Shown here: piece by piece, positions 27,138 through 44,108 of the stretch
Position numbering within the stretch: the stretch's first letter is position 1
Layout of the letters: every line of letters begins with the position of its first letter
Assembly: GCA_017416805.1 (NCBI GenBank)
Contig: JAFQBB010000033.1
Span: 1-64,000 of the forward strand
Direction of reading: 5' to 3'
DNA: 64,000 nucleotides
Source of the DNA: Bacteroidaceae bacterium
GTDB lineage: Bacteria > Bacteroidota > Bacteroidia > Bacteroidales > Bacteroidaceae
Position numbers and translations under genes: made by a program
Notes under the pieces: generated by a model
Database searches by the model: none
What the model saw: the letters and a program-made list of their open reading frames with translations, nothing else
Told to the model about the DNA's origin: nothing

Positions 27138-30100
27138 TCACTCCACTCTCACCTTGTACGTGCTTGCCTGTCCGGCGGTCACGATGCGGACCAGTGTCAC
27201 TCCTTTGTGGCCCTTAGTGCTGAGGACGCAACGGCCTTGCAGGGTTGACTGGCCGATGGTGGTGCCTCGTGGGGTGTAGAGCAGGACGGTAGCCTCTTCC
27301 GGAAGGTCAATGTGGACGCACCCTTTGCCCCCTTTTACCTTGGCAGGCAGGGCATGGAGGACTTCTGCCGTTTCGGGGTTCAGGTCGGTAAGTGGAGCCA
27401 CGTTTGCGTTGATTACCCGTCCGGTGTTGGCATCAAGCAGCATGGCTGCCACCTTGCACTTCGCCGGGTCAGAAACGGTGTTCAGTACCTCCTCGAAGGT
27501 GATGGAGGCGGTTATGGTCTCGCCACTCTTCACTGTGGCAGGCACTATGCCCGAATAGCCGCTGATGGTGCTCTGCGAGTTTGCCAATACGGCACGTGCC
27601 ACATCGTGGTATTCCATCTGTACGGTAGCCTGTCCGCCATAGATGCCATTCTTTCCCCAGTCGCCATAAATGGGGTTGTCCATGTTGGCCCGCCCGTTTA
27701 TCTGCGTACCTTTCAGCCCGTCTTCCAGCAATACGTAGAAGAGGTTGGCCGCCACTCCTGCCTTGCTGATGGCATAGGTCACATTGGTATTGACTTGCAG
27801 GCTGCCCGTCGTCCTGTCGAAACCGGCTGACAGGGTTATGTCCGCATCGGCCTCGGTCTCCAACTCGCGCAGCACGAGGTCCATCCATGACTCATTGCCT
27901 GTGGCAGAGACGAAAGAGTATTCGTACGTATCCATGTTGATGACTATCGGGGCAACGATGGAATCCCTTCTGTTTACGCGGGCAGTGGGCAGGGCTGTCA
28001 GTCCCAGGGCGGTGGCATAGTCGTCGTTGCCAAAGATGTCGTTGGAGTGTATGCACACAGGGATGATACGTCCGGGCAGAGCCTCCTCCATGTGCTCTAT
28101 GGCCACCATGCCGTCAGGGCAGTTGCTGCACCATGTGCCTGTCACCTCCTCTATGACCACTTTCTTGTCGGTCTCGAAGGCCAGGTTCTTGATGGTGAAG
28201 TCGGTAGTCTTCGTGTCTTCTCCCAAGATGACCCCTACGGTCACCCTGTTCTCTTCGCCAACGGCCAAGGGGAGTTTCTTGTCGAAGAGGAACTCGTGTA
28301 TGTCTCCATTTCTTAGTGCAACCCCCGTAGTGCGGATGGTGTCGCAAACGGTCTTTTCCTCGTTATGGAAGAAAAGGGTGAGAGCCTCGTAGGTGTTGCT
28401 CTCGTCAGTGATTCTGACCACACCGCCAATGGCTGTCTCGCTTTGGTTCACTACGGTAGTCTTGGTGTTGAGAGCCAGGAGGCAGTTGCTCTTGTAGGTC
28501 ACCTTGATATTATCTACGAATAAGGCACTCTGGTTGGTATTTTGGTTAGCAAAGGCTATATAGACATGCTTTCCTGCAAACTGCTCCAAGGAGATTTTCC
28601 TGTGAGTCCATTCTCCACTCAAGTATTCTTCGGTATTGCCGCTTGCCTCCTGCTGGTCATATACGCAAATTCCTTTTGACTTGATGTCGCTGACGACCTC
28701 GCCGGTCAGTGAGGTGTAGATGGCATCATCGGCATAGACATACACCTTCAGACTGTCTTTCTTGGCGGTCAGGTATGACTGGACGTCGAAGAGCAGTGTG
28801 CAGAAGGCATTGGGCAGATAGATTTGGTTGGTCACCATCCAGTCGTCAGACTTTCCGGCAGGATTGTACATGGATATGCTTCCGGCACAGTAGTCGTAGC
28901 TGTTCTCGTCCTCGCTGATCATGAAGTACCACGGTGTGTTGTCGGCATCGAACTGCCATCCCTGTGCCGTGCTGTTGGGCGTCAGGTGGTCGCCCTCGTA
29001 GAGCATGAAGTTGTTGTACGAAGCCGAAGGGTCTGTAAAGTCATCGGCAAAGAGCAGAGTGTCAGCAGGAGCTTCGGGGATGTAGGCTCCCGTATAGTGG
29101 TAAGTGATTTCCTCGTTGCTGCAATTCCCCATGATGTCGGTGACGGCTCCTGCCGGAATCTTTACCACGTAGCTCACCCCCTTGAAAAGATTTCGCTTGG
29201 TGCTGGGATAGGCCGCCAGCATGTCTGCCGAAGTGGCCAATGTCAGGTCACTGATAGGGTTGCTGACTCCCTCCTGATATAGTGCGCCCTTGCTCCCTTC
29301 GGTCAATGAAATGCGGGTGTCAAACCGCATGGTCACGGGAATGCTGTAGCTGAGCGATGCCACTTCCATGCCGTCCTCCAGATTGACAGATACCACCTGC
29401 ACCGGTTTCTCGCTACGGCCTGTGTAGGTCACCTCAATGTCCTGGTTGTAGGTGTCCGTCTCTCCCAATCGGAAAGTGCCTGCAGGGACCTTGACGGTAT
29501 ATTTCACCCCATCCTCCAATGGTGTGTTGCGGAAGTTGACGTTGAACGTCTTGCACTGTGATTCGTCATCAGTAGGAGTAATGGAGATGGAAGAGCGTAT
29601 GGGAGCATCGCTGCCTTCTTTGTACAGGGCTGCCTGTGTGCCGTTGACAACCGTCGGAGCTTTGTCGAAACCAATGGTGATACCCTTGAAATAAGAGAAG
29701 GCGGAACCCGCTTCGGGAGTGACATACGAGCGTGCCAACAGGTTCACCCCACTTGCAGCCTTTTCGATGCTTTCCGGAAACGTCACCACATAGTTTCCTT
29801 CATTGACCGAAAAACCGGCAACGGTCTTTCCGTCGGCTGAAACCGATATGGCCAGCCCGCTGTTGTCGATGCCCGTGGTTGTGGCAAAGTCTATGCCGTA
29901 GCGTTCTCCCAGTATCAGCTCCAAGTTGTAATAGTACCCCCCTATCAGGTACATCTGTGTGCGGTAAGGGTTGCTGATGGGTGAAGCAACAGCCATCAGG
30001 CCGTTGTTGAACATGGCCGTGGCGGCAGCCCCATGGTGTTCGGATGTGGTATAGGGCAGAAACTCCTTGGTTTTGGTGTTGTACGTATAAGGTATCTCCT

Positions 30101-30917
30101 GCTGGTCAGGGTGTTGCGAACCCTCAACCGGTGTGATGAGTCGGGCCGTACCGCCTGCCCACTCGCCGTTGGTGCTGAGGCAGACACTGGTTACTGCACT
30201 TCCTGTCGCAAAGAAGTCGCTTGTACCTATCAGCTCGTAACTCTGCTCATCCACCCGATAGATGTAATGCTTGATGTCGTCCGGGAAAATGTACATGAGG
30301 CCTCCCACAATGATTTTCCCATCGGCAGAGATGTCGATGGCGCGGTTCAGCTGGTAAGTCCCATCGCCTGTAGGCATACCGGGAAGTTCTACGGGAACTC
30401 CCTCCTTCCACATCACTGGGTACTCGAAATACCCGCCGTCCAGGTTGCCGTTGTTGTAGTAAAGTGTGCCCACCATAATCTTCCCGTCCGGAGTGATGGC
30501 CGATACATATCCGTTGGCATCTGCCATACTTTCGGGCAGGGTCAACAATCGCCACGAAGAAGTCCCATCCGTATTGATGGTGCAGGTGGCCGGTTTCCCC
30601 TGATACGAGCCGACAACGGTCCGTCCGTCATCAGTCACATCGCGTACACCACAATCGGGCGAAGAGAGCACCTCCGCTTCAGTCAGCAGCGACACAGAAG
30701 TGCCTGCCGCAACATCCAGCAGGTAAGGATAATTCTCCAACGTGGAGTTGTTGGCATCCACATTGCTGGCCACTGCCCAAAGACCATTATCGGACAGTTT
30801 GTTGATATAGACAGTCTCTGCAAAGGTGAAACTTCGGAGCGATACTTCTTGTCCTCTCAGGGACATGCAAAAGTGTACGCAAATGAGTAGGGAAACGAGA
30901 GTGAATATTCTTCTCAT
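27138..30917 (-). CDS. Large secreted multidomain protein with an Omp28/thioredoxin-like domain
   Basis: This 1259-residue protein has a signal peptide (cleavage near MSLRGQEVS). Four regions follow. About 25-390 is a beta-propeller-like part with repeated 'DGK.IVGG' turns (TDDGRTVVGSY, TPDGKIMVGTL, SADGKIIVGGL, SADGKTVAGFS). About 400-610 holds two Ig-like domains. About 615-800 resembles a choice-of-anchor jelly roll (DDWMVTNQIYLP). About 915-1150 is an Omp28-like thioredoxin fold with C930-S-N-C933 in GTWCSNCPDG. The last 75 residues have the strand pattern of a type IX sorting tail, ending STYKVRVE. It is divergent from the operon beginning at 31067 and shares its themes. An extracellular thiol-active adhesin or receptor is the best reading. 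Confidence 0.75.
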   Translation of the reverse strand: MRRIFTLVSLLICVHFCMSLRGQEVSLRSFTFAETVYINKLSDNGLWAVASNVDANNSTLENYPYLLDVAAGTSVSLLTEAEVLSSPDCGVRDVTDDGRTVVGSYQGKPATCTINTDGTSSWRLLTLPESMADANGYVSAITPDGKIMVGTLYYNNGNLDGGYFEYPVMWKEGVPVELPGMPTGDGTYQLNRAIDISADGKIIVGGLMYIFPDDIKHYIYRVDEQSYELIGTSDFFATGSAVTSVCLSTNGEWAGGTARLITPVEGSQHPDQQEIPYTYNTKTKEFLPYTTSEHHGAAATAMFNNGLMAVASPISNPYRTQMYLIGGYYYNLELILGERYGIDFATTTGIDNSGLAISVSADGKTVAGFSVNEGNYVVTFPESIEKAASGVNLLARSYVTPEAGSAFSYFKGITIGFDKAPTVVNGTQAALYKEGSDAPIRSSISITPTDDESQCKTFNVNFRNTPLEDGVKYTVKVPAGTFRLGETDTYNQDIEVTYTGRSEKPVQVVSVNLEDGMEVASLSYSIPVTMRFDTRISLTEGSKGALYQEGVSNPISDLTLATSADMLAAYPSTKRNLFKGVSYVVKIPAGAVTDIMGNCSNEEITYHYTGAYIPEAPADTLLFADDFTDPSASYNNFMLYEGDHLTPNSTAQGWQFDADNTPWYFMISEDENSYDYCAGSISMYNPAGKSDDWMVTNQIYLPNAFCTLLFDVQSYLTAKKDSLKVYVYADDAIYTSLTGEVVSDIKSKGICVYDQQEASGNTEEYLSGEWTHRKISLEQFAGKHVYIAFANQNTNQSALFVDNIKVTYKSNCLLALNTKTTVVNQSETAIGGVVRITDESNTYEALTLFFHNEEKTVCDTIRTTGVALRNGDIHEFLFDKKLPLAVGEENRVTVGVILGEDTKTTDFTIKNLAFETDKKVVIEEVTGTWCSNCPDGMVAIEHMEEALPGRIIPVCIHSNDIFGNDDYATALGLTALPTARVNRRDSIVAPIVINMDTYEYSFVSATGNESWMDLVLRELETEADADITLSAGFDRTTGSLQVNTNVTYAISKAGVAANLFYVLLEDGLKGTQINGRANMDNPIYGDWGKNGIYGGQATVQMEYHDVARAVLANSQSTISGYSGIVPATVKSGETITASITFEEVLNTVSDPAKCKVAAMLLDANTGRVINANVAPLTDLNPETAEVLHALPAKVKGGKGCVHIDLPEEATVLLYTPRGTTIGQSTLQGRCVLSTKGHKGVTLVRIVTAGQASTYKVRVE

Positions 30918-30956
30918 AATTATGCAATTCTTAAAAAGTGTGTGTTAAAACGTTCG

Positions 30957-30964
30957 CAAAAGTA
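30957..30964 (-). promoter_or_regulatory. -7 box for the large secreted protein gene
   Basis: The minus-strand sequence is TACTTTTG followed by CGAACG, 40 bases before the ATG at 30917. It has a GTTG word about 20 bases upstream. Confidence 0.55.
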
Positions 30965-31038
30965 GGGGGAAAAGGCAATATAGGCAACGATTTGCAATAT
31001 TTTAACTCAAAAGTGATTAAATATTCATGCTTTATACC

Positions 31039-31046
31039 TATTTTTG
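31039..31046 (+). promoter_or_regulatory. -7 box for the thioredoxin-SusCD operon
   Basis: TATTTTTG followed by CAACC lies 21 bases before the ATG at 31067. It is divergent from the box at 30957-30964 and 75 bases away, so a regulator bound between them could control both directions. Confidence 0.55.
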
Positions 31047-31066
31047 CAACCGAAACGAAAAACAGA

Positions 31067-31561
31067 ATGAATATGAAGAGATTCTTTTGTATGGCAGTAC
31101 TTGCTCTGATGTGTGCTGCCATGTATGCCCAACTTCCTTCCGTAAAACTGAAGAACCTTGAAGGAAAGACCATTGACACTGCCGAACTCAGCAATGATGG
31201 CAAGCCCTTTATCATCAGTTTCTTTGCTACTTGGTGCAAACCCTGTAACCGTGAACTGAAAGCCATTCACGAGAACTATGCAGATTGGCAGGATGAGACC
31301 GGTGTGAAGGTTATCGCCGTCTCTATTGATCAGGCACATCAGATAGCCAAAGTGAAGCCTATGGTCGATGGCGCAGGTTGGGAATATGAAGTCCTGCTCG
31401 ACCCGAACAGCGATTTCAAGCGTGCTTTGGGTGTGAACATGATACCCCACGTATTCATCATTGACGGTAACGGAAAGATTGCCGATCAGCGTAGCGGATA
31501 CACGGATGGGGCAGAGGAACACTTGATTGAGAAGGTGCGCGAACTCATTGAAAAGAAATAA
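31067..31561 (+). CDS. TlpA-like exported thioredoxin
   Basis: This 164-residue protein has a signal peptide (MNMKRFFCMAVLALMCAAMYAQ) and a TlpA/ResA-type thioredoxin fold with the redox motif W56-C57-K-P-C60 (FFATWCKPCNREL). The central AVSIDQAHQ insertion and the cis-proline region NMIPHVFIID complete the fold. Such proteins reduce or exchange disulfides outside the cytoplasm. I use the ATG at 31067 because longer frames begin before the promoter box; the ATG two codons on is equally possible. It is the first gene of a nine-gene operon and probably serves the cysteine-bearing proteins encoded with it. Confidence 0.88.
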   Translation: MNMKRFFCMAVLALMCAAMYAQLPSVKLKNLEGKTIDTAELSNDGKPFIISFFATWCKPCNRELKAIHENYADWQDETGVKVIAVSIDQAHQIAKVKPMVDGAGWEYEVLLDPNSDFKRALGVNMIPHVFIIDGNGKIADQRSGYTDGAEEHLIEKVRELIEKK

Positions 31562-31600
31562 TAAACCGCTTGGTTTAAAAGGAGTAAAGAATATTAGAGA

Positions 31601-33274
31601 ATGTCGAAAATTACACGCGGAGTTGCCATATTTGCTATGGCACTGATTACTGTGCCCCTTACGGCGCAGGAGGAAGTCACTTTGAATGGTAGCATTCAGA
31701 GTGACATCTTGTTGCCTCAAGAGGACAATAAGATTGGTACAAAATATGACTCCAATTCAGACCTGCTGACCAATACGTATGTTGACCTGCATCTGCGCAG
31801 TCACTACATCGATGCCGGTGCCCGATTGGAGTATATGGACTATCCGCTTCCCGGCTTTGAAACGGACTTTCAGGGTTGGGGAGTCCCTCACATGTATGTC
31901 AAGGCCAAATTCGACCAAGGAGTGGATGTGACATTTGGTGACTTCTATGACCAGTTCGGTAGCGGATTCATCTTCCGTGCATACGAAGAACGCAGTTTGG
32001 GTATTGATAACTCCCTGCGTGGACTCCGTCTGAACATTACCGGCATCAAGGGCTTGAACCTGAAAGTGCTTGGAGGAGCCCAACGCCGTTATTGGGAGTG
32101 GGACGACAAAACCCTCGTTGGAGGAGCTGATGCAGAAGTGAATATCGAACAATACAGCCAAAAGATGCAGGACAAAGGCGTCAGTTGGATGGTCGGCGCC
32201 TCCTTTGTGGGAAAGAAAGAGGAAGACGAAATGATTATGCTCAACCCCGTACAGCGCTTGAACCTTCCAAAGTTCGTTACAGCCTTCGATGTGCGCAGCC
32301 GTTTCCAGAAAGGGAACTATAGCTTGATGGCGGAGTATGCCATGAAAAGCCAAGACCCCTCGTTCGATAATGGCTACATATACAAGAAAGGTAATGCACT
32401 GATGCTTTCTGCCTCGTACTCCAAACGTGGTATGAGTGCGTTGGTACAGGCAAAACGAAGCGAAGACATGTCATTCCGTAGTCGTCGTTCGGTGAATGGT
32501 ACGAGTGTGTTCCTCAATCACATGCCTGCATTTGCCTATCAACATACATACGCATTGGCTGCTCTCTATCCGTATGCCACACAGATGGCAGGCGGTGAGT
32601 GGGCTATGCAAGGCGAATTTGGTTACACTTTTAAGCGAAACACCTTGTTGGGCGGCAAGTATGGTACAAACTTGAAATTAAATATAAGCTATATCCGTGC
32701 CATAGATAAAGAACCAGTTGCTGCAGATAAACTGATGGGAACAGACGGATATACCTCATCTTTCTTTAAGTTCGGAGACGAAACTTACTATCAAGACATC
32801 AACGTACAATTGGAAAAGAAGTTTACCAAGGCATTCAAGATGAACTTGATGTATATGAACCAACGCTATAATCAAAGTGTGATTGAAGGACATGGGGGTA
32901 TGATAAACTCTAATATCTTCGTTGGTGAGGGCAAGTACCAGTTCAATAAAAAGTTTACTCTTCGTGGCGAATTGCAGTACTTGACCACTCCGCACGAAAG
33001 CGGTGATTGGATGTATGGTCTGCTTGAACTTTCAGTGCTTCCTTATCTTATGTTTACCGTGAGCGATATGTATGGTAAGCCGTCAGTCAATGGCGGACTT
33101 GAATATGCCGGCAAGGAACACTATTACATGGCTTCTGTTACCTTCAACTACAATGCCCATCGCATTATGGCAGGTTATGGCCGTACACGTGCCGGATACA
33201 ACTGCTCGGGCGGTGTTTGCCGCTACGTCCCTGCCAGCCGGGGAGTGAATATCTCGTATAACTATAGCTTTTAA
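31601..33274 (+). CDS. DUF6029-like outer-membrane barrel protein
   Basis: This 557-residue protein has a signal peptide ending LTAQEEV and a long series of amphipathic strands (ARLEYMDYPLPGF, VTFGDFYDQFGSGFIFRAYE, GVSWMVGASFVG, YASFNYNA-like). It ends in the aromatic barrel signature RGVNISYNYSF. The pattern 'DFYDQFGSG..FRAYEERSLGIDN' is characteristic of the DUF6029 group, which usually accompanies Omp28 genes, as here. Two cysteines near the end (SGGVCRY and NCSGG) are close enough to form a disulfide. It is probably a large outer-membrane channel or anchor. Its stop is 6 bases before the next start. Confidence 0.7.
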   Translation: MSKITRGVAIFAMALITVPLTAQEEVTLNGSIQSDILLPQEDNKIGTKYDSNSDLLTNTYVDLHLRSHYIDAGARLEYMDYPLPGFETDFQGWGVPHMYVKAKFDQGVDVTFGDFYDQFGSGFIFRAYEERSLGIDNSLRGLRLNITGIKGLNLKVLGGAQRRYWEWDDKTLVGGADAEVNIEQYSQKMQDKGVSWMVGASFVGKKEEDEMIMLNPVQRLNLPKFVTAFDVRSRFQKGNYSLMAEYAMKSQDPSFDNGYIYKKGNALMLSASYSKRGMSALVQAKRSEDMSFRSRRSVNGTSVFLNHMPAFAYQHTYALAALYPYATQMAGGEWAMQGEFGYTFKRNTLLGGKYGTNLKLNISYIRAIDKEPVAADKLMGTDGYTSSFFKFGDETYYQDINVQLEKKFTKAFKMNLMYMNQRYNQSVIEGHGGMINSNIFVGEGKYQFNKKFTLRGELQYLTTPHESGDWMYGLLELSVLPYLMFTVSDMYGKPSVNGGLEYAGKEHYYMASVTFNYNAHRIMAGYGRTRAGYNCSGGVCRYVPASRGVNISYNYSF

Positions 33275-33280
33275 AAGAAG

Positions 33281-34051
33281 ATGAAGAAACACCTTATATA
33301 TATAATAGGTATAGCAGCGACCCTGTTCACCGCTTGCGAAAATATCTCGGAAGACGAACGCTTCTTGGACGTGGAGGGGGTTACAGCCAAACGTGTAGTC
33401 CTCCTTGAAGATTACACAGGACAGGCATGTGTTAATTGCCCGGAAGCACATAAAGAAGCTGCAGTATTGCATGAAGAATACCATGATAATCTGATTGTAG
33501 TGGCAATACATGGAGGACCGCAAGCATTGCCTTTACCTGTAGGTCTGAAACAACCAGAGGGGGATGAGTATGTGACAGCATTTGGCGTCAAAAGTTATCC
33601 TATCGGACAAGTGAATCGCCGTGGTGGATTAAAGGATTATCCTTCATGGGGGGCTGCGGTGTATGATGAACTTCAGCGAGAATCCTGTTTGGAAATGTCC
33701 GTTTCTTCAACTTTGGCAGAAGATGGTAAGCTAAAAATAGAAACTTCTCTTATGCCCTTACAGAATTTGGAGGGACATTTGCAATTGTGGCTTGTAGAAG
33801 ACAGTATTAAGGCTCTTCAAGTGTCTCTTCAAGGTGGTAATCCTCAATATGTTCACAATCATGTTTTTCGTGGTGCAATAAATGGGACTTGGGGTGAAGA
33901 AGTTTCTTTGGCATTGGGTGAGCAGAAGGTTTTGGAATACAATGATATAGTTCTGGATGCAGCATGGAAGCCTGAAAATGTTTCAGTAGTTGCTTTTGTC
34001 TATAATGATGATGGAGTAGTACAAGCAACCCAGTGCAAGTTAAGTGAATAA
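33281..34051 (+). CDS. Omp28-family surface lipoprotein with a CxxC thioredoxin-like domain
   Basis: This 256-residue protein has the lipobox LFTAC (Cys19) and then ENISEDE, an acidic stretch fitting surface export. The Omp28 core begins VVLLEDYTGQACVNCPEA with C50-V-N-C53, followed by a thioredoxin-like fold with the cis-proline region KSYPIGQVNRRG. The C-terminal half is a beta domain (LWLVEDSIKALQ, HNHVFRGAINGTWGEEV). Omp28 was described as a surface lipoprotein of Porphyromonas gingivalis; its role is not settled. The CxxC is the same motif as in the 1259-residue protein across the divergent promoter. Confidence 0.88.
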   Translation: MKKHLIYIIGIAATLFTACENISEDERFLDVEGVTAKRVVLLEDYTGQACVNCPEAHKEAAVLHEEYHDNLIVVAIHGGPQALPLPVGLKQPEGDEYVTAFGVKSYPIGQVNRRGGLKDYPSWGAAVYDELQRESCLEMSVSSTLAEDGKLKIETSLMPLQNLEGHLQLWLVEDSIKALQVSLQGGNPQYVHNHVFRGAINGTWGEEVSLALGEQKVLEYNDIVLDAAWKPENVSVVAFVYNDDGVVQATQCKLSE

Positions 34052-34872: not shown

Positions 34873-37800
34873 ATGAAGAAACATTTGTTAGTGTGGATAT
34901 TGTCCCTCTTGCTGCCCGTCGGAGCCTTCGCACAGGTCACGGCTACCGGTACGGTCATTTCAGGGGAAGACAACTTCCCGATTATTGGTGCGGCAGTGCA
35001 GAGTAAGGAGGATCCTACAATTGGAACAGCCACCGACATGGACGGAAATTTTACCTTGGAAGTTCCTGCCGGTACGAAAACCCTGGTGATTTCATACATT
35101 GGTATGAAGACGCAAGAAGTCGCCCCCAAAATGGGCCTGAAGATAACCCTCATGCCCGAAACCGAAGTGATAGAAGATGTAGTGGTTACCGGTTTCCAAA
35201 AGATAGACCGTAAGATGTTTACCGGTGCAGCCCAGAAGATTACTGCTGAAGAAGCCAAAATTGATGGTGTGGCTGATATCAGCCACTCTTTGCAGGGACG
35301 TGTTGCTGGTGTTTCTGTGCAATCCGTATCTGGAACATTTGGTGTTGCACCCAAAATGCGTGTACGTGCTTCGGCTTCTCTTTTTGGTAATACCCAACCT
35401 CTGTATGTGGTAGATGGAGTGATTTTGGAAGATGTTGCAGAGATGACGGCTGATGAACTCTCTTCTGGAGATGCTTCGACAGCCTTAAGTTCACGTATAG
35501 CAGGTATCAGTTCAGAAGATATTGAAGACTTTCAGGTTTTGATGGATGCTAATGCTGTAGGTCTCTATGGTGCCCGTGCCCGTAATGGTGTGATAGTAAT
35601 CACTACCAAACGTGGAAAGAAAGGACAGGCGGCTTTGTCTTACTCTGGCGAATTCACCTATCGTCTTCGTCCTTCCTATTCACAATATGATATTATGAAC
35701 TCACAAGATCAAATGTCGGTCTATCAGGAAATGAAGCAAAAGGGATGGTTATATCATGTAGATATGGCTTCTGGCCGTACTCAGAATGGTGGTAGCTATT
35801 TCTTGATGAATGATATGATTTATAAGGGTAAATTAGCAAATAACCCTCTATCAATAGCTAATTATGAACGTTATCTTGAACAAGTCAATACCGATTGGTT
35901 TGAGGAATTGTTCAATCTCAATGTGCAGCAATATCATAGTTTGAGTATAACTGGTGGAACAGAAAAGGGTGCTTATCGTGCTTCGTTGAGTTATCGTGGT
36001 GATCCGGGTTGGACTAAAGGTAATGAGTTGGATGTCTATACTGCTTCGTTCAATTCTTTCTATGAGTTTAACAAAAAACTGAAACTTACATTGTTGGCCA
36101 ATGCCATGTATCGTAATCAGATTGGCCCTGGTACTGAAGAACGTAACTTGAATGTGGTGACAGGTGAGTATGAACGTGACTTTGATATTAACCCCTATAG
36201 TTATGCAGTTTCTACCAGTCGTACGATGTCTCCATACGATGAACATGGCAATCTTCAATATTACCGTCAGAATTTTGCTCCCTTCAATATATTGAACGAA
36301 CTGGACAATAATATAATGGAAATGGAGCAGTTTGATGTGAAATTCCAAGGAGAATTGGAATGGAAACCTATCAAAGAATTGACCTTGACAGGTTTGTTAG
36401 CCTATAGTGCAAACAATTCCCAGACCGAACATAAAATCTATGATAACAGTAACTATGCCAATGCTTATCGTGCAGCTGATGATGCTACGATGGCTGCAGG
36501 TAACAAGTTCTTGTATCAAGACCCGATGAATCCTGATGCTTTGCCTGAGGTTGTAATGAAGGATGGTGGGTTCTACAATACCAAGCGTAATACGATGAAT
36601 AGTCTTTATGTTCGTGCTACGGCCGATTATGATGCCATGATAGGTGAGGATTTTCGTATTCATCCTATGTTAGGTGCCGACCTGAAGCGTACGAATCGTA
36701 CTGTGAATTATGCTGATGGTTATGCATTTTCTTGGAGTGGTGGTGGTCAACCGATATTGGATTGGCGCATGATGCAGGATATGCTTATCAAAGGTGCTGA
36801 GTATTATGGTTATGCTGAAGGACGTGATCGCCAAATAGGATTGTTTGCTACAACAGCCCTTTCATTTAGAGACAAATACACTCTGAGTCTGATTGGACGT
36901 TATGATGGTTCTAATCGAATGGGTCGTACAGATAATTCACGTTGGTTGCCCACTTGGAGTGTCAGTGGTAAGTGGAACATTGGAGAAGAATCTTGGATGC
37001 AGAATCAGAATGTTTTCTCTTCGTTGGCTTTACGTGGTTCATATGGCTTGACTGCCGATTTGGGTCCTATGAACAATGCATATGTAATCTATTACTACAA
37101 TAATACATGGCGTCCGTTGACAGATCCTAACAGGTCGGATGAAGAACTTTCATTGTACATCAACCAGTTGGCCAATGATGATTTGACATGGGAAAAACAA
37201 TACGAATTGAATGTAGGTTTGGATATGGGCTTCTTGAATGAACGTATCAATGTCAGCACTAACTTTTATACACGTCGTACATTTGATATGATTGCCCCTA
37301 TGCAGAGTTCAGGAGTCGGTGGTCAAGGAATGAAGTGGGGTAATGTTGGTAAGGGTAAAGCCTGGGGTGCTGAAGCTACTATCACGACACAGAATATCGT
37401 GAATAAGGATTTCAACTGGACAACTCATTTCACTTATTCTTATTCAAAGGATGAAGTGACAGAGTTGGATGTGGTTTACAATGCCATCGGTATGTGTATG
37501 CCTGAAGGAGTTCCCTTGGTGGGAAATGCTTTCCATGGCCTTTATTCTTATAGATTTGCCGGTTTGTCAGAGGAAGGATATCCATTGATTTACAATGAGA
37601 ATGGAGTTCCAACCAGTACTGCTATTAATTTCCAAGATCGTAATGGACAGGATTATTTGAAGTATGAAGGAAGCATTGACCCTTCTGTGACTGGTGGTTT
37701 GCGTAACTCGTTCCGTTGGAAGAATTGGACTGCAGACATCTTCTTCTCATACCAGTTTGGTAACAAGATTCGATTGAACTCTCAGTTTGCATCATCATAT

Positions 37801-38196
37801 AGTGATATGCAATCTATGAGCAAAAGCTTTAATAATCGTTGGATGGTGCCAGGTGACGAGCACAAGACCAATGTACCGGTTATTGCGTCATATCGTCAAG
37901 TTCAAACTACTTCAAACTTAGATTATGGTTACAATGCTTATAACTATTCCGATGTACGTGTGGCCGATGGCGGGTTTATCCGTTTGAAAGAGGTAGCATT
38001 GGGTTATAACTTTACACAACCTTGGGTTGAGAAAATCGGTTTGAGCAATTTGAATTGCCGTTTGACTGCTTCCAATCTGTGGTTGGTGTATAGCGATTCC
38101 AAGTTGAATGGACAGGATCCGGAATTTATTCAATCCGGTGGTATTGCAATGCCTACTCCGCGACAGATTACTTTTAAGATAAGTACGAATTTCTAA
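34873..38196 (+). CDS. SusC/RagA-family TonB-dependent transporter
   Basis: This 1107-residue protein has a signal peptide (LPVGAFAQ). A carboxypeptidase-like regulatory domain follows at about 20-105 (GTVISGEDNFPIIGAAVQ, TDMDGNFTLEVP). The plug (about 110-235) has the family marks VVVTGFQKIDRKMFTGA and GLYGARARNGVIVITTKRG. A very long barrel ends RQITFKISTNF. SusC proteins import oligosaccharides or peptides through the outer membrane with a SusD lid and TonB energy. The plug start lacks the common 'VVGYG' and reads VVTGFQ, a form often seen in RagA-like or peptide-linked systems. With a peptidase lipoprotein downstream, peptide import is the likelier cargo, by inference. Confidence 0.93.
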   Translation: MKKHLLVWILSLLLPVGAFAQVTATGTVISGEDNFPIIGAAVQSKEDPTIGTATDMDGNFTLEVPAGTKTLVISYIGMKTQEVAPKMGLKITLMPETEVIEDVVVTGFQKIDRKMFTGAAQKITAEEAKIDGVADISHSLQGRVAGVSVQSVSGTFGVAPKMRVRASASLFGNTQPLYVVDGVILEDVAEMTADELSSGDASTALSSRIAGISSEDIEDFQVLMDANAVGLYGARARNGVIVITTKRGKKGQAALSYSGEFTYRLRPSYSQYDIMNSQDQMSVYQEMKQKGWLYHVDMASGRTQNGGSYFLMNDMIYKGKLANNPLSIANYERYLEQVNTDWFEELFNLNVQQYHSLSITGGTEKGAYRASLSYRGDPGWTKGNELDVYTASFNSFYEFNKKLKLTLLANAMYRNQIGPGTEERNLNVVTGEYERDFDINPYSYAVSTSRTMSPYDEHGNLQYYRQNFAPFNILNELDNNIMEMEQFDVKFQGELEWKPIKELTLTGLLAYSANNSQTEHKIYDNSNYANAYRAADDATMAAGNKFLYQDPMNPDALPEVVMKDGGFYNTKRNTMNSLYVRATADYDAMIGEDFRIHPMLGADLKRTNRTVNYADGYAFSWSGGGQPILDWRMMQDMLIKGAEYYGYAEGRDRQIGLFATTALSFRDKYTLSLIGRYDGSNRMGRTDNSRWLPTWSVSGKWNIGEESWMQNQNVFSSLALRGSYGLTADLGPMNNAYVIYYYNNTWRPLTDPNRSDEELSLYINQLANDDLTWEKQYELNVGLDMGFLNERINVSTNFYTRRTFDMIAPMQSSGVGGQGMKWGNVGKGKAWGAEATITTQNIVNKDFNWTTHFTYSYSKDEVTELDVVYNAIGMCMPEGVPLVGNAFHGLYSYRFAGLSEEGYPLIYNENGVPTSTAINFQDRNGQDYLKYEGSIDPSVTGGLRNSFRWKNWTADIFFSYQFGNKIRLNSQFASSYSDMQSMSKSFNNRWMVPGDEHKTNVPVIASYRQVQTTSNLDYGYNAYNYSDVRVADGGFIRLKEVALGYNFTQPWVEKIGLSNLNCRLTASNLWLVYSDSKLNGQDPEFIQSGGIAMPTPRQITFKISTNF

Positions 38197-38218: not shown

Positions 38219-39871
38219 ATGAAGATACGAAAAATATTATATGGCGGATTGGTCGCATTGTTATCCTTCATGACAGTCTCATGCGATGATTTCTTGAGCG
38301 AGGATCCCGATAATCGTGTGTACCTTGAATCGCCCGAATACATAGCTTATTTGCTTGCTACCGCTTATCCCGAAGCAGATATAGCCTTTGCAGAAGCTAT
38401 GTCTGATTGTGCAGGTGACCGCGGATTGGATGCTATATTGGATGACAAGGCATTGGAGCAGTCCTATCTTTGGAAGAATGTAGTAGAAACCTATCAGGGT
38501 ACTCCTTCTTATTATTGGTTTCAGGCTTATGCTGCTATTTCAGCAGCCAATCATGCATTGGAAGCCATTGAGGATTTTGAAGCTGCAGGTCGTGGTGATG
38601 AAGTTAAGGAAGTACGTGGTGAAGCCTTGATTTGTCGTGCATACGCTCACTTCATGTTGGCAAATGTGTTTGCAATGCCTTATAATCCGGCAACAGCTGA
38701 TGCAGAAATGGGTGTTCCTTATGCAACCAAACCTGAAACAACACTGAATCCAGTCTATGAACGCGAAACATTGGCCGAGACATACCGTTTGATTGAAAAA
38801 GATTTGTTGGAGGGATTGGAACTGGTACCTGCAAATTTTGAAGAGGCTCCGGCTTACCATTTTACCCGCAAGGCCGCTTACGCTTTTGCTTCTCGTTATT
38901 ACCTCTGGAAAGGTGGCGATGATAACTTCCGTAAGGCTATAGAGTGTGCCAACATGGTTTTAGGCGATGTAAAGACCGATGATCCTTCGAGTTTGTTGCG
39001 TCAGTTAAATGACCCTAATAGCGATTACTTGGGCGATTATTATGATGCACAGACCCTTTATACTTCTTCGGCAGAACCTGCAAATTTATTATTGGTAGCT
39101 GTTGTGTCAAATCTGTATTACCAACCTTATTGGCGTTACGGTATGACTGCGGTCATTCGCCAGACTGTTTACAGAAATGGAATTTTTGGTTATCAATGGG
39201 CTTACCAGACAAGTGGCGGATATGATTATGTAATTCATCGTCCGTTGTGGGCCTATTACTTCTTGCAGGAAGGGTTGAATGCAAACTATGGAACAATGCT
39301 TTCTTCAATTCCTTTGTTAACAACAGAAGAGGTGCTCTTGAACCGTGCAGAAGCCAATGCTTTGTTGGGTAATTACTCCGATGCGTTGATTGACATGAAT
39401 ACTTTCCTTAGTAAACGTTTGAATAAGAAATCTTGGACAGGAACTTCTATTACAGAAACGGATGTCAGGAAATCATTTGGTGTAGATACAAACGCATATC
39501 CTAATTGGCGTGAAACCAGTGTGAATCTCTTTCCTTATTTCATGGATTTCAAGGATGAGACAAATTTGGAAACGTTCTCTTACGTAAGTGCGATACTTGC
39601 CATGCGTAAAGCTGAATTCTTGGGTACAGGACTTCGATGGTTTGACATCCGTCGGTATGATATTCCGGTGGTACATACTTCCGTTACTCAGCCGACTGAG
39701 ACATTGGAATCCGGAGACCGTCGTCGTGCCTGCCAGATACCCGATCAAGCACAAGGAAGTGGCATTAAACCTAATCCTGTGGAGAATCCTATACCGGAGA
39801 GTATGAGAGAGGCTGCGACAAAGAATTACCCGTTTGGGTGGGAATTTGTAGAAACTCCGAATGAACAATAA
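38219..39871 (+). CDS. SusD/RagB-family surface lipoprotein
   Basis: This 550-residue protein has the lipobox TVSC (Cys22) followed by DDFLSEDPDNRVYLES, the typical SusD N-terminus. The helical TPR-like half is visible (AYAAISAANHALEAIE, EALICRAYAHFMLANVFA), and a C-terminal loop-rich part holds the ligand site. SusD proteins cap the SusC channel and capture the ligand; homologues of the RagB type bind peptides. The gene is 22 bases after SusC and 14 bases before the metallopeptidase gene, which is tight coupling. Confidence 0.92.
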   Translation: MKIRKILYGGLVALLSFMTVSCDDFLSEDPDNRVYLESPEYIAYLLATAYPEADIAFAEAMSDCAGDRGLDAILDDKALEQSYLWKNVVETYQGTPSYYWFQAYAAISAANHALEAIEDFEAAGRGDEVKEVRGEALICRAYAHFMLANVFAMPYNPATADAEMGVPYATKPETTLNPVYERETLAETYRLIEKDLLEGLELVPANFEEAPAYHFTRKAAYAFASRYYLWKGGDDNFRKAIECANMVLGDVKTDDPSSLLRQLNDPNSDYLGDYYDAQTLYTSSAEPANLLLVAVVSNLYYQPYWRYGMTAVIRQTVYRNGIFGYQWAYQTSGGYDYVIHRPLWAYYFLQEGLNANYGTMLSSIPLLTTEEVLLNRAEANALLGNYSDALIDMNTFLSKRLNKKSWTGTSITETDVRKSFGVDTNAYPNWRETSVNLFPYFMDFKDETNLETFSYVSAILAMRKAEFLGTGLRWFDIRRYDIPVVHTSVTQPTETLESGDRRRACQIPDQAQGSGIKPNPVENPIPESMREAATKNYPFGWEFVETPNEQ

Positions 39872-39885
39872 AAATCGAATGGAAT

Positions 39886-40845
39886 ATGTTGAAGAATCAA
39901 ATATATAAAATCTTTTGGATTGTGCCCTGTTTGATGTTAGGGCTTGCATCGCCAATCTTTACTGCATGTGACGATGATGAGATTAGTGGCTCAATTATTG
40001 AAATCCCTGAATATGAGATGTGGGATACTACCGAAATAGGCAAGTTTATTTATGAGAACTTTACAAAGCCTTACAATATCCGGGTTATTTATCGTTGGGA
40101 GAATGGTCGTCAGGATATGGGTAAGAACTTAGTCCCCCCAAAGGAAGAAAAGATGATTCCTTTTCTTACCATGTTGAAGGAGGTATGGATGGAACCGTAT
40201 GTGGAGTTTTTGGACTCAGCCGATTTTGCCAAATATACAGTAAAGGAGATGTTGGTTTCCGGTTCAAAGGCTCTCGAAGAATCTGGTACAGTCACTTTGG
40301 GATTTGCCGAAGGTGGACGTCAGATTCTGCTTTACGATGTGAACAGCCTTTCGCCTGAGAATGAAGCCGATTTTGTAATGTATTTCCATACTATGCATCA
40401 TGAGTTTGCTCATATCCTTCAGCAGAACAACAAGGATTATGATGGAGAGTACCGTGTCCTTTCCAAAGGTTTATATACCTCTGCATGGGCAAATACCACT
40501 AATGATGCAGCTCGCGAGGAAGGATTCATTACTGCCTATTCAAAAGCTAAGGAAGACGAAGATTTTGTAGAAGTCCTCTCAATAAAGTTAGTGAACAGTC
40601 CTCAAGCCTGGAACTATTTGATAGACCGTATCCAGAATGAAGAAGCTCGCAAAATTCTTCGTGAGAAAGAGCGAATTGTAGATGAATGGATGAAGGATGT
40701 ATGGGATATCGATATGGATAAATTCCAAGAGAGAGTTTATAAAACCATTAAAAAGAAAATGGGGCTTCCCGATAACGAGGATTATATCCATGACGGAAAC
40801 TATATCATAGGTAGAATTATTAACGGACAAGTAGAACTCAAATGA
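39886..40845 (+). CDS. Zinc-dependent metallopeptidase lipoprotein (HExxH)
   Basis: This 319-residue protein has a lipoprotein signal (SPIFTAC, Cys28) followed by DDDEI. The catalytic motif is H172-E173-F-A-H176 within TMHHEFAHILQQ. A downstream aspartate/glutamate in AREEGFITAYSKAKEDEDF (near 210-228) may be the third ligand or a gluzincin glutamate. Its position after SusCD and its surface-type acidic N-terminus suggest a cell-surface peptidase that trims substrates before uptake. Related proteins are annotated only as putative zinc-binding metallopeptidases. The end overlaps the next start by four bases (ATGA). Confidence 0.88.
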   Translation: MLKNQIYKIFWIVPCLMLGLASPIFTACDDDEISGSIIEIPEYEMWDTTEIGKFIYENFTKPYNIRVIYRWENGRQDMGKNLVPPKEEKMIPFLTMLKEVWMEPYVEFLDSADFAKYTVKEMLVSGSKALEESGTVTLGFAEGGRQILLYDVNSLSPENEADFVMYFHTMHHEFAHILQQNNKDYDGEYRVLSKGLYTSAWANTTNDAAREEGFITAYSKAKEDEDFVEVLSIKLVNSPQAWNYLIDRIQNEEARKILREKERIVDEWMKDVWDIDMDKFQERVYKTIKKKMGLPDNEDYIHDGNYIIGRIINGQVELK

Positions 40846-42287
40846 AAAGAATTGCATATTATATAATGCCTTTGTTTGCTGTAGTTGTTCTTGCTACGGC
40901 CTGCGATGATGAAGATTATCGCAACCCAAGTGGTATAGTGAACTCTTATGTCGATGAACATCAGAATTTGTTGATATCTTCTGAATATGGATGGAGATTT
41001 GATTATTCTCCGAACGAAGATAAATATGGAGTTTATACATTTTTGATGGACTTTAATGAGAATGGTCGCGTGACAATGCAAACTGATATGGACTTCTTTT
41101 ATCAGTCTGCATCAGGCGAAGATTTGCAACGGGATTATGAACCTCAAGAGTCTGATTACACGATTCAGAATGTTGAAGGTCCGGTTTTGACTTTTGCAAC
41201 TTATTCGTTGTTGACAAAATTGGCCGATCCCGAACTGAATGTTGCCGGTAGCGGATGGAATGGCGATAATGATTTTATCATCATGGGGCACAGTGTCACT
41301 AATGATACCATCTATCTGAAATCGTTGAAGGCTCAGAAGAAATGCTTCTTGGTAAAGAATACTGAGGATTGGGATTCCTATTTTGAAGGTATGAACAAGG
41401 TGATTGAGAAGTTCGCTGCTGTTACAGCCGTAAATACATATTTCAGGGATATAGAAATAGAAGGATGCGAGCCCGCTGTAATGGCCGAGTTTAACATGGC
41501 TACTCGAATGGGAGTAGTTTATCAGAATGTTAATGGCCAAATGGTTGCAGATACTTGCCGTTTTAGATTTACGTCAAACGAAGTGCGTCTTGAAGAGCCA
41601 TTATTGATAGGTAATGTAGAGGTTACTCATTTCACAAATAGAGATGATATTGATGGATTCTTGGTTAATGGAAAAGAGGGTTCTACTATCAATGTTGTGA
41701 CAGATGGTCGTCCGAAGATGATATTCGATGTTCGTGATAAAGTCTTTAAAGGTGTTTTTGAAGAAGTTATTGATGGCGTCTCCATTGAACGCGATGACAT
41801 GTACCAATTCTTCCTTCATCCCGAAGAGAGCAATGACGAATGGGCTGCTTTATCTCTTAAAATCAATAAAGATGATTATCAGTATATGTTGGTAGTTCCT
41901 GATGACAAGAAGAACTATTATTTTGCTCTTTATGTTATGTTGTCTGATGATAAGGGGCAGAGACATTATGTGTTGGCTCAGTGTCAGGTTAACTATACGT
42001 GGATAGCAGATGATGAGGTCAGATTCCAAGGTGCAAAACCAAATACATTACTTTTCGCAGGAATGGATACAGAAGATGGAGAGTGGAAAATTGGCACACC
42101 TTTAGCAAAGAAGTTTCAAGAAGCTGTCGAAACTGAATTTATGAATTATTTAGGTAGTATGCTTGGTGTAAGTGAACGATACCCTGACAGAGTGGAATGT
42201 GTAGTTGTTCCCTCAATTGATGGCTACTATTTTAATTTTGTAAATAAGAAGACAGGTGGTCTTCTTCAGTTGATGAAAGCATATTAA
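40842..42287 (+). CDS. DUF4302-like lipoprotein
   Basis: This 481-residue protein has the lipobox LATAC (Cys21) and then DDEDYRNPSG. The N-terminal half carries the DUF4302 pattern (EYGWRFDYSPNEDKYGVYTFLMDF followed by beta-rich strands), and the rest is beta-rich with no enzyme motif. DUF4302 proteins commonly follow a SusD and HExxH peptidase pair in Bacteroidales; their role is unknown and they may be surface binding proteins. Its translation is coupled to the metallopeptidase by a four-base overlap. Confidence 0.75.
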   Translation: MKRIAYYIMPLFAVVVLATACDDEDYRNPSGIVNSYVDEHQNLLISSEYGWRFDYSPNEDKYGVYTFLMDFNENGRVTMQTDMDFFYQSASGEDLQRDYEPQESDYTIQNVEGPVLTFATYSLLTKLADPELNVAGSGWNGDNDFIIMGHSVTNDTIYLKSLKAQKKCFLVKNTEDWDSYFEGMNKVIEKFAAVTAVNTYFRDIEIEGCEPAVMAEFNMATRMGVVYQNVNGQMVADTCRFRFTSNEVRLEEPLLIGNVEVTHFTNRDDIDGFLVNGKEGSTINVVTDGRPKMIFDVRDKVFKGVFEEVIDGVSIERDDMYQFFLHPEESNDEWAALSLKINKDDYQYMLVVPDDKKNYYFALYVMLSDDKGQRHYVLAQCQVNYTWIADDEVRFQGAKPNTLLFAGMDTEDGEWKIGTPLAKKFQEAVETEFMNYLGSMLGVSERYPDRVECVVVPSIDGYYFNFVNKKTGGLLQLMKAY

Positions 42288-42322
42288 ACCGTTATAGAGT
42301 AAAAAAAAGAGTATTTATTGTT

Positions 42323-44035
42323 ATGAGAAAAACATTGAAATTTGCAGTGGTGGTTTGTATGGCTGCAACATCAGTAATGGCACAGTTGCCGCAGGTAAAT
42401 TATTTGCCAATGCAGAAAATGACTATGCCAAAGACCACGAAGGAACATTGTGTTGTGGAAAACTTTGGGGCATTGAAGTCGCTTCCGCTTAATACCATGA
42501 ATATGAATAATCAGGTATTTACCGAAAGGGGAGTTCTTCCTATTACTGTTCTTCCCGGAGTGAAGAATCCAAATGCAGTATTGACCAGAGCTGCCACCTT
42601 CAAGGCATATTATGAGAAACCTGCCGGAGTGTATAACATAAAAGCCGGTTTTGCATATACCGACACTACCTATTCACGTCATGGAATATTGGCACCAATC
42701 TTTCAGGATGTGGTTTATCGGAATGCATCGACAAATGCTGTAGCAATTGATTGGGAAATTGATGGAAACATCTCTTTTATAGATTCAGCTTCAGTTATTT
42801 ACCTCCCTGGTGGAAGAAACTTTTACGAACCTATGCCGAAATTGACAGCATACGCTGCGAATGATGCTGAAGATACTTTTCAATACGGCTACTGCTTGAA
42901 CAAGGATTCTGCTCAAGCCGGTAAGACTGTGTATGACGAGGGTCAGGCGGTGACAGTACCTTTTGGTATGGTACATAACCTTGATGCCGGTGCTGAGAGC
43001 TTCTATAACACTTATATTGCGACTAAGGGTACTGACTGGACACAGATGCTTTTTGGGTATGATAAAGATTATAAGCCGAGCTATGTTGAAATTTTTGAGA
43101 AACCATTGGGCTCAGTAGTGCTCTCTTCCGTATATACATATATTGCTACACCTGTGAATTATGATTTGGCAGATGTCCAGTTCAGCATGTATGTTATGGT
43201 TTACGATGAGTCTACAGGTTGGATGCCGCTTACTCAAAAGGTTACAGCGAAACCCGGCGGACGTTTGGGACAGCTGACAGATGAGTGTGATGTATGGCAT
43301 ATAACCTTCTTTTTTGAGAAACCGCTTATTGTTGACAAGCAGTTTGGTATAGTTCTTGATGGTCCGCAGGATGGTTCTGCCCAGTGGGCATTCATGCATC
43401 AGAATGACAGGGAAATGGGTACAGGTCATTACACTGCCGGATACATCCCTTCTGTTGGCGAATATACCGGATACTTGATGCCGTATGCATTGAACTACAA
43501 TGGTACTCCAACTCCTTATCCCGCATCTATTGACATGGGCGTTGAAATGTTTATGCCTTATAATATGGTGATGGATACTGTGAATTTCCAGTTCCTTAAT
43601 TATGGAGGCTATATTGAATTCTCTGAACAAGGTACGGCAGGTACCCCATGGCCTGCTTATTTGTGGAACTGGTATGCCTATATCTATGGTTCAAAGGCTA
43701 AGGTGAGAATTACCTCAAATGTTGATTGGTTGAGTGCAGAGGTAGTCAAGCAGCCGGCTGATGACAGATTCTTGTCTGAAATCAATATTTCAGTAGATCC
43801 GCTGCCTGCCGATGTGAAAGGTCGTGCCGGAGTGTTGACCATCATTGACAATATGGGATATGAAACACATTGGAAGTTTATCCAGGGCGATGCAGCTGCA
43901 GGCATAGAAGAAGTTACGGTTGCCCAACCGGCTCTTGACCCTAATGCTCCTGTATATGACCTCACAGGCCGTCAGGTTCTTAATCCTACGAAGGGTGTAT
44001 ATATCCAGAACGGATGCAAGTTTGTGGTGAAATAA
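42323..44035 (+). CDS. Secreted beta-rich protein with a BACON-like domain and short sorting-type tail
   Basis: This 570-residue protein has a signal peptide (SVMAQLPQ). Its long N-terminal part is a beta-sandwich without a motif I recognise (repeats of 'YGYCLNKDSAQAG'-like turns). Near residues 455-520 a BACON-like domain is visible (ITSNVDWLSAEV, then GRAGVLTIID). The end, PVYDLTGRQVLNPTKGVYIQ, is the short 'tGr.v..p.kGiYI..gkK.v' tail common in Prevotella-type secreted proteins and thought to mark surface or type IX export. It is the last gene of the operon, 38 bases before a perfect terminator stem. A target- or glycan-binding role is likely, but unproven. Confidence 0.65.
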   Translation: MRKTLKFAVVVCMAATSVMAQLPQVNYLPMQKMTMPKTTKEHCVVENFGALKSLPLNTMNMNNQVFTERGVLPITVLPGVKNPNAVLTRAATFKAYYEKPAGVYNIKAGFAYTDTTYSRHGILAPIFQDVVYRNASTNAVAIDWEIDGNISFIDSASVIYLPGGRNFYEPMPKLTAYAANDAEDTFQYGYCLNKDSAQAGKTVYDEGQAVTVPFGMVHNLDAGAESFYNTYIATKGTDWTQMLFGYDKDYKPSYVEIFEKPLGSVVLSSVYTYIATPVNYDLADVQFSMYVMVYDESTGWMPLTQKVTAKPGGRLGQLTDECDVWHITFFFEKPLIVDKQFGIVLDGPQDGSAQWAFMHQNDREMGTGHYTAGYIPSVGEYTGYLMPYALNYNGTPTPYPASIDMGVEMFMPYNMVMDTVNFQFLNYGGYIEFSEQGTAGTPWPAYLWNWYAYIYGSKAKVRITSNVDWLSAEVVKQPADDRFLSEINISVDPLPADVKGRAGVLTIIDNMGYETHWKFIQGDAAAGIEEVTVAQPALDPNAPVYDLTGRQVLNPTKGVYIQNGCKFVVK

Positions 44036-44073
44036 ATTTTTACTTATAAATTACCTGCAAAGGGATTATAGGT

Positions 44074-44108
44074 GAGGGTGTGTCTAAATTTATTTTTGAC
44101 ACACCCTC
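44074..44108 (+). terminator. Terminator of the nine-gene operon
   Basis: GAGGGTGTGTC and GACACACCCTC form a perfect 11-bp stem around a 13-base loop, followed by TCTTTG. Confidence 0.8.

Follow-up and report, generated by a model that had tools for sequence, protein, structure and literature searches.

A conserved TlpA–DUF6029–Omp28–PorA gene module of Bacteroidota with a possible role in thiol exchange across the outer membrane

Background

The surface protein PorA of Porphyromonas gingivalis (P. gingivalis), a polypeptide of 246 residues, impacts PorXY-SigP signalling, and acts upstream of the PorXY-SigP control of type IX secretion by a route in which, according to its authors, other factors should mediate. 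Its fold is immunoglobulin-like and resembles that of FimH, and deletion of porA is reported to lower the transcripts of sigP and of the type IX secretion genes. PorA corresponds to PG2172/PGN_0123, and PG2173 is described as an Omp28 lipoprotein (PMC9722745). Here we analyze a stretch of 64,000 nucleotides (the window: positions 1 to 64,000 of contig JAFQBB010000033.1, assembly GCA_017416805.1) from a Bacteroidaceae bacterium, which holds an island of ten genes. These comprise a run of nine, namely those for a TlpA/ResA-like protein, a DUF6029 protein, an Omp28 lipoprotein, a small protein with a sorting tail that we assign to the PorA family, a SusC–SusD importer, a metallohydrolase, a DUF4302 lipoprotein and a secreted protein of 570 amino acids, and a divergent gene for a secreted protein of 1259 amino acids.

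Another described system that bears on this island is the locus 00502–00509 of Paraprevotella clara, reported by Li et al. (Nature 2022, PMC9477747). One of its products, 00502, combines a WD40 domain, immunoglobulin (Ig)-like domains and the C-terminal tail of cargo of the type IX secretion system (T9SS), and is described as an 'Omp28-related outer membrane protein'. It recruits trypsin, which then digests itself, and 00509 aids this recruitment. The genes 00503–00508 were not required for trypsin degradation; 00502 bound to beads sufficed, and the free protein was inactive. The EGEF medium used in the Paraprevotella work contains cysteine.

Our literature search found, among the matches listed and with few subscription journals covered, no paper joining TlpA, DUF6029, Omp28 and PorA-like proteins. 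The DsbD/CcdA-type thiol carriers and the Mtr porin–cytochrome conduits are familiar examples of systems that move reducing power through a membrane and have partners on either face of it. The module proposed below would resemble both in this respect, and would differ from DsbD, which acts in the inner membrane, and from Mtr, which uses haem rather than thiols. P. gingivalis itself has a surface thioredoxin-domain protein, HBP35 (PG0616), which is likewise listed as T9SS cargo; it is a single protein, and we know of no link between it and DUF6029 or Omp28.

Results and discussion

A conserved triad of TlpA, DUF6029 and Omp28

We compared 100 DUF6029 loci from 98 genomes, sampled from the genus of the window out to the phylum; many of these loci are cut by contig ends, and the DUF6029 genomes G029, G050, G098 and G223 are not among the long loci. 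A TlpA gene lies within 5 kb of DUF6029 in 88 loci (within 300 bases in 85) and an Omp28 gene in 84 (within 300 bases in 68), with both being present in 75 loci and at least one in 97. TlpA–DUF6029–Omp28 is a conserved triad that is wider than the island, and the suggestion made in an earlier note on this DNA, that the redox genes form a unit, is borne out by these counts. In the loci L012–L015, labelled Chitinophagales, Sphingobacteriales, Bacteroidetes and Chitinophaga, the triad is present with tlpA inverted. Together with the PorA-like gene discussed below, the gene module TlpA–DUF6029–Omp28–PorA is well supported.

Four loci (L166–L169) have no Omp28 beside DUF6029; three of them (L166, L168 and L169) encode further TlpA-like proteins downstream, and L167 encodes one upstream. 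The cysteine pair of DUF6029 described in the next section is kept in all four.

Cysteine pairs of the triad

The TlpA copies contain WCxxC in 86 of 88 cases, and the more specific WCxPC in 84; a CxxC motif is present in all 84 Omp28-type partners (54 recognized by a script and 30 by reading). These counts include two TlpA misses (L100 and L169), as well as an Omp28 row (L048) that is a truncated end of the large protein. The N-terminal part of Omp28 aligns to TlpA in register at the CxxC motif (hhalign E 3.2e-5, probability 73%, over a stretch that includes the signal peptides), and the Omp28 part of the 1259-residue protein matches the thioredoxin 2ypm (E 0.0029); on account of these two matches, the N-terminal domain of Omp28 is probably thioredoxin-like. 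The NCBIfam model for an Omp28-related selenoprotein gave a weak match. The lipobox cysteine of Omp28, C19, is invariant in 12 of 12 sequences.

In DUF6029 we found a further pair that the earlier note had missed, Cys535-x4-Cys540, which is present in 103 of the 103 distinct copies that reach those columns. The alignment has 112 rows, 7 of which stop short of the cysteine columns: five are N-terminal pieces whose second piece reaches them, and two are truncated or broken frames (L123 and L125). Just 8 of 504 well-filled columns are fully invariant, and these are the two cysteines and six glycines; 63 of the 103 copies have no further cysteine in the aligned part. DUF6029 is a probable outer-membrane β-barrel, a reading based on its HHpred likeness to Wzi-type barrels (PMC9603273) and on the finding of PG_2174, which by position is probably its P. 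gingivalis counterpart, in vesicles (PMC4335976). The cysteine pair sits in a hairpin before the last strand. The C-terminal strand of outer-membrane barrels usually ends in the periplasm and, if this holds for DUF6029, the hairpin would point outwards. In the window, the DUF6029 hairpin CSGGVC and the loop CWGGGC of the PorA-like protein look alike, perhaps by chance alone.

The sorting-tail protein as a member of the PorA family

In divergent genera, the neighborhood of the triad holds small proteins that combine a T9SS tail with a C-x3/4-C pair. The window version has 244 residues, comprising a signal peptide, one domain and the tail, and profile comparisons place it in the PorA family. A profile of 16 family members, headed by the window sequence, finds the N-terminal domain of P. 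gingivalis PorA (6kjk) first in the PDB, with E 3.9e-5 against 0.19 for the next entry, and aligns the LCFGQ-C stretch of PorA on the cysteine pair (CWGGGC in the window, CFGQC in PorA). When tails were included, PorA was still matched outside the tail (E 7e-4); with the single window sequence as query, PorA was not found. Both cysteines are kept in all 45 PorA-like proteins located within 5 kb of DUF6029 in the 100 loci, with a spacing of three or four residues in 43, five in one and a long insert in one. The motifs that the earlier note had singled out in TlpA, Omp28 and the sorting-tail protein are, by these counts, conserved. The T9SS tail model TIGR04183 matches 15 of 18 PorA-like proteins.

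The likeness to PorA thus covers the homology of the N-terminal domain with its aligned cysteine pair, the overall plan of signal peptide, one domain and tail, and the length. It extends to the neighborhood, for in P. gingivalis, as in the window, an Omp28 gene adjoins the gene for PorA, judging by the adjoining locus tags PG2172 and PG2173 given in papers; searches with an Omp28 fragment for synteny in P. gingivalis gave a best identity of 40%. We take the PDB entries 2r2c and 2m72 to be P. gingivalis proteins, the latter presumably being PG_2175. As in P. gingivalis with its PorXY-SigP system, SprA and a PorX-like protein are encoded in the window genome. The systems differ in that the portions of the PorA paper available to us make no mention of Omp28, DUF6029 or TlpA.

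An assignment of the sorting-tail protein to the T9SS surface endonuclease family of AS87_RS02955 (NF052644) was rejected, because the weak whole-length match (23.7 bits against a cut-off of 260) lies in the sorting tail; with tails removed, 0 of 16 domains matched. Variants of the PorA-like proteins include frames of 162–165 amino acids with the cysteine pair and without a sorting tail in genomes lacking DUF6029 (L193/G304 and L194/G262), and tandem arrays of two to at least four domains in frames of up to 1020 amino acids (G610:C19:28921-30498; L131, L205, L207 and L231).

Co-occurrence of PorA with DUF6029 and fusions of Omp28 to PorA

Genome lists for DUF6029, PorA-like proteins and SprA were compared by eye and then entered into scripts, and the resulting statistics ignore phylogeny. 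In a draw of 395 Bacteroidota genomes, we detected DUF6029 in 83 and PorA-like matches in 58; the window genome has no PorA-like match other than its own gene. DUF6029 is present in 54 of the 58 PorA-like genomes, as against 29 of the 337 without such a match (Fisher p 3.6e-40); by genus, it is found in 41 of 43 PorA-like genera (p 7.6e-23). The seeds of the PorA-like profile were linked genes, so that the unlinked matches offer a fairer test. The 54 genomes with both genes divide into 37 with linkage within 5 kb and 17 without; among the PorA-like genomes without a linked copy, 17 of 21 have DUF6029, compared with the base rate of 83 in 395. The C-x3/4-C pair is present in all 20 non-adjacent PorA-like matches (from 15 of the 17 unlinked genomes, a second copy in G252 and four genomes lacking DUF6029). 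A second set, of 24 order-level genomes, has PorA-like matches in 7 of 10 genomes with DUF6029 and in none without it (p 3.5e-4, a value that counts as negative G060, which is absent from the matches listed, and includes among the seven G057, which gave a seed sequence). The order draw as a whole yielded a PorA-like match in 162 of 393 genomes; in 30 loci from it, the window's included, the cysteine pair is present in 30, and an Omp28 match lies within about 1.5 kb in 17.

In three genomes the Omp28 and PorA-like domains are parts of one protein. In G126 an Omp28 domain (residues 20–247) is followed by a PorA-like domain (268–387) and a tail recognized by eye, while in G508 and G610, from one genus, Omp28 (94–336 and 228–476 of the recovered pieces) shares its chain with two or one PorA-like domains and a tail, again recognized by eye; tlpA and DUF6029 come after the fusion in both. 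Of all the evidence, these fusions point most strongly to Omp28 and PorA acting on one another. A candidate Omp28–PorA–Omp28 protein in the SprA-less genome G016 (L059), the middle part of which reads QICAGGQC, was not counted as a fusion, because the profile match of that part is not convincing (hhalign E 0.0074, probability 5%); DUF6029 adjoins this protein with two Omp28 domains.

Placement in the envelope and association with type IX secretion

The Omp28-type partner is nearly always of a surface type, as judged from its lipoprotein signals or T9SS tails: 44 of the 84 partners are marked as lipoproteins by script, and the other 40, by reading, are 15 lipoproteins, 24 proteins with T9SS-type tails and one cut fragment. 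All ten scanned from the 24 tailed forms exceed the cut-off of the tail model. A DsbD_TM protein encoded in the window genome could feed TlpA.

SprA, the product of the T9SS translocon gene sprA/sov, is present in 82 of the 83 DUF6029 genomes (the exception being G016) and in 221 of the 312 others (p 8.7e-10); within the genus of the window, DUF6029 occurs in 7 of 9 SprA-positive and 0 of 6 SprA-negative genomes. A 525-residue receiver–PglZ protein of the window genome is PorX-like, as judged by eye and by its PglZ match. The window contains sprA itself at 49511–57004 on the forward strand (2855 bits to TIGR04189), about 5.5 kb beyond the island. In G014 and G011 the gene is located beyond the opposite end of the island, and in G105, of another family, it and DUF6029 are about 10 kb apart.

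A proposed thiol module and its alternatives

We propose a mechanism to which we would give an even chance: the four proteins would form a thiol module that serves PorA by exchange across the outer membrane, bundled in this organism with a capture-and-import operon. TlpA in the periplasm, DUF6029 in the outer membrane with its single C-x4-C hairpin, and Omp28 at the surface would pass thiol–disulfide exchange from one to the other, and the surface client would be the PorA-family protein, whose C-x3/4-C pair Omp28 would reduce or oxidize. Since P. gingivalis PorA acts upstream of the PorXY-SigP control of type IX secretion, the module would most likely set or read the state of PorA. In the genus of the window, it would be joined to the SusCD importer, the surface metallohydrolase and the two end genes that are like the trypsin-recruiting pair of Paraprevotella. 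A more ambitious form, which we put forward tentatively and consider rather doubtful, holds that the triad serves as a dedicated apparatus carrying the thiol–disulfide state across the outer membrane of Bacteroidota, that PorA-family proteins are surface reporters through which the redox state outside controls type IX secretion via PorXY-SigP, and that in the genus of the window, and perhaps in Paraprevotella, the same reducing power acts on a captured host protease.

Several observations weigh against the proposed module. The cysteine pairs could be structural disulfides, and the hhalign match between Omp28 and TlpA also covers signal peptides. L166–L169 have another TlpA-like protein in place of Omp28. 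No PorA-like gene was detected in 29 of the 83 DUF6029 genomes, and 4 of the 58 PorA-like genomes lack DUF6029, in a comparison that ignores phylogeny and uses a profile seeded from linked genes. Finally, the PorA authors detected no interaction between PorA and PorY.

The linkage of a barrel, two thioredoxin-like proteins and PorA, along with the Omp28–PorA fusions, would also suit a maturation or export pathway, in which TlpA maintains the PorA cysteines in the reduced state on the periplasmic side, DUF6029 provides PorA with a route of its own across the outer membrane, and disulfide formation by Omp28 at the exterior helps to pull PorA out. The T9SS tails of PorA-like proteins and the nesting of DUF6029 within SprA genomes speak against such a private route, a fused Omp28–PorA protein would hardly fit a small dedicated channel, and we hold this explanation to be unlikely; we infer service to PorA signalling rather than to its maturation or export. 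Somewhat less probable again is that the disulfides are structural, with TlpA and Omp28 merely aiding folding and the genes being linked because they are produced alongside the type IX secretion machinery. DUF6029 and PorA each have one invariant pair that could indeed stabilize a hairpin, and the association with SprA agrees with this. However, the WCxPC of 84 of the 88 TlpA copies is a thioredoxin-type, reductase-like motif that is not typical of oxidases, and in the fusions PorA has a CxxC domain beside it at the surface. The likeness of DUF6029 to Wzi-type barrels near OPX genes has suggested to us another role, namely that of a polysaccharide export porin with neighbors that protect the process, but this is very improbable: TlpA or Omp28 are neighbors in 97 of the 100 DUF6029 loci (which were not scanned for OPX genes), and the invariant cysteine pair would be left unexplained.

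The earlier note had envisaged an extracellular redox relay that treats secreted cargo or captured substrates for peptidase digestion and uptake; as we would put this idea, the captured substrates might include host trypsin and would be imported by SusCD. Its basis would be the resemblance of the end genes to 00502 and 00509, and the WCxxC thioredoxin-like stretch of the 1259-residue protein, which is kept in the copies listed from the window's genus; moreover, the cysteine in the Paraprevotella medium could have masked a requirement for reductants at the surface. Against this stand the dispensability of 00503–00508, the sufficiency of bead-bound 00502 and the inactivity of the free form (PMC9477747, as far as its text was available), and the occurrence of importer and peptidase with the triad only in the window's genus. 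We consider treatment of substrates improbable as the purpose. As far as flanks of often about 5 kb show, SusC, SusD, the peptidase and DUF4302 are confined in this way, and the triad with PorA-like cargo is phylum-wide, so that digestion and uptake find no support as the function of the unit. The unit is TlpA–DUF6029–Omp28–PorA rather than the whole island; the relay is a reasonable idea, and it gains support in this altered form from the conserved motifs and the linkage of the redox genes.

The island in the window and its relatives

The window genome measures 3.16 Mb. In our genome scan, its closest named relatives are genomes of uncultured Bacteroidaceae that stem from hindgut samples of sheep, roe deer and water buffalo. 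Nine co-directional genes span 31067–44035, with gaps of 39, 6, 22, 64, 22, 14, −4 and 35 bases, and the tenth is divergent (Table 1). The same ten genes occur in the same order in five of five long loci of the closest relatives (L005–L009), a recurrence that is more than chance. The earlier note was right about this arrangement, save for a first gap given as 40 bases, and about the families and the four motifs WCKPC, CVNC, WCSNC and CWGGGC, all present in the window proteins. Its expectation that the ten families co-occur outside the strain holds for these relatives, while beyond the genus only the triad and the PorA-like cargo were seen together, without SusC, SusD, the peptidase or DUF4302 beside them in flanks of often about 5 kb.

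Table 1. Features of the island in the window
Feature	Position	Strand	Basis or remark
Secreted 1259-residue protein with propeller-like repeats in its N-terminal part (judged by eye), an Ig-like part, a choice-of-anchor J domain, an Omp28 domain that bears WCSNC, and a tail	27138..30917	-	Divergent gene; resembles Paraprevotella 00502 as described in the text available
Thioredoxin-fold protein of the TlpA/ResA-like type with WCKPC; signal peptide plain, as judged by eye	31067..31561	+	Model match
DUF6029, probable outer-membrane β-barrel; Cys535 and Cys540 at 33203-33220	31601..33274	+	Model match; barrel from PMC9603273
Omp28 lipoprotein, probably thioredoxin-like N-terminal domain; CVNC at 33428-33439	33281..34051	+	Model match
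PorA-family protein with T9SS tail; CWGGGC at 34323-34340	34074..34808	+	TIGR04183 and family profile
SusC/RagA-type TonB-dependent transporter	34873..38196	+	Model match
SusD-like lipoprotein	38219..39871	+	Model match
Import-associated zinc metallohydrolase lipoprotein (HExxH)	39886..40845	+	LP_HExxH_w_tonB
DUF4302 lipoprotein	40842..42287	+	Model match
Secreted 570-residue protein, variable between relatives	42323..44035	+	No family match; position like Paraprevotella 00509
Inverted repeat closing the gene run	44074..44108	.	Perfect 11-bp stem; no long T run after it

Families were assigned with Pfam and NCBIfam models, which gave 597 bits for DUF6029, 647 for SusC (cut-off 368), 267 for LP_HExxH_w_tonB (cut-off 75), 269 for the Omp28 lipoprotein model NF033782 (cut-off 150) and 28.4 for TIGR04183 on the CWGGGC protein (cut-off 23); the ResA/TlpA-like, SusD and DUF4302 assignments also hold, and the last gene has no match to any Pfam or NCBIfam family. 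No Rfam match was found between 20 and 50 kb of the window. The closing inverted repeat has arms of 15 nucleotides at 44074–44088 and 44094–44108 (93%) that contain the perfect 11-bp stem on which a terminator had been proposed; it is not among the entries of our terminator scan of the window, and no long T run follows it. TAnnTTTG boxes, which we take to resemble the Bacteroides −7 element, are present in 30918–31066, 20 bases ahead of tlpA and 39 ahead of the divergent gene; they are weak promoter evidence, because the window has 49 such boxes. Elsewhere in the window, a LacZ-type β-galactosidase frame at 61413–63965 (reverse strand) reaches the edge.

The SusC, SusD and metallohydrolase genes adjoin one another. 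Together with DUF4302 and the last gene, they were met beside the triad only in the window's genus, in a limited view from single-sequence searches with flanks of often about 5 kb; L098 carries a single weak label for SusC. Of 15 genomes from the genus, 7 have DUF6029, and the metallohydrolase is found in the same 7 and in G008. SusCD and the metallohydrolase are most simply read as an uptake system that has been attached to the module in this genus. Iron uptake was set aside as a theme: the Bacteroides thetaiotaomicron genes BT3958-59 (TonB receptor and SusD) and BT3961 (DUF4302) fall under iron limitation (PMC10434189), an account that, in the part available, is silent on redox genes. In G002 (76% complete, 5% contamination) two copies of the island lie on different contigs (L049 and L050).

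In the 1259-residue protein, we identified an Omp28 domain that the earlier note had missed (36.4 bits over a cut-off of 34.9), along with a choice-of-anchor J domain and a Big_5 match just under its cut-off; the Pfam and NCBIfam models recovered neither a T9SS tail nor a propeller in this protein or in the 570-residue product of the last gene. By description, the divergent and last genes may be likened to the trypsin-recruiting 00502 and 00509. In Paraprevotella, as far as described, a large T9SS-type Omp28-related protein with propeller and Ig-like parts stands at one end, a variable secreted protein at the other, and conserved genes between; that locus has eight genes as against ten in the window. 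The statement of the earlier note that the gene set was undescribed is partly overtaken by this resemblance and by the placement of the sorting-tail protein with PorA. A second cluster in the window genome (L061, G000:C6:66000-85000) encodes two more Omp28-containing proteins, in frames of 649 and 661 amino acids, which alternate with large secreted proteins.

Conclusions

The route from PorA at the surface to PorY in the inner membrane gains three candidate mediators from this conserved locus, namely TlpA, DUF6029 and Omp28. Each candidate has a cysteine pair, as does PorA, and the candidates go with type IX secretion. The uncharacterized DUF6029 thereby acquires a testable role and, should the proposal be true, thiol exchange across the outer membrane would to our knowledge be without a described precedent. 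The analysis also draws attention to the 1259-residue protein, likened here to the trypsin recruiter of Paraprevotella, and to its thioredoxin-like stretch; if the likeness to 00502 holds, its WCxxC raises the question of whether disulfide reduction helps trypsin to fall apart, an idea against which the behavior of free and bead-bound 00502 speaks. More generally, four neighboring genes that are widespread in the phylum may link the redox chemistry of the envelope to a surface signalling protein, and in this gut bacterium they do so, if at all, from within a larger operon for protein capture and import.

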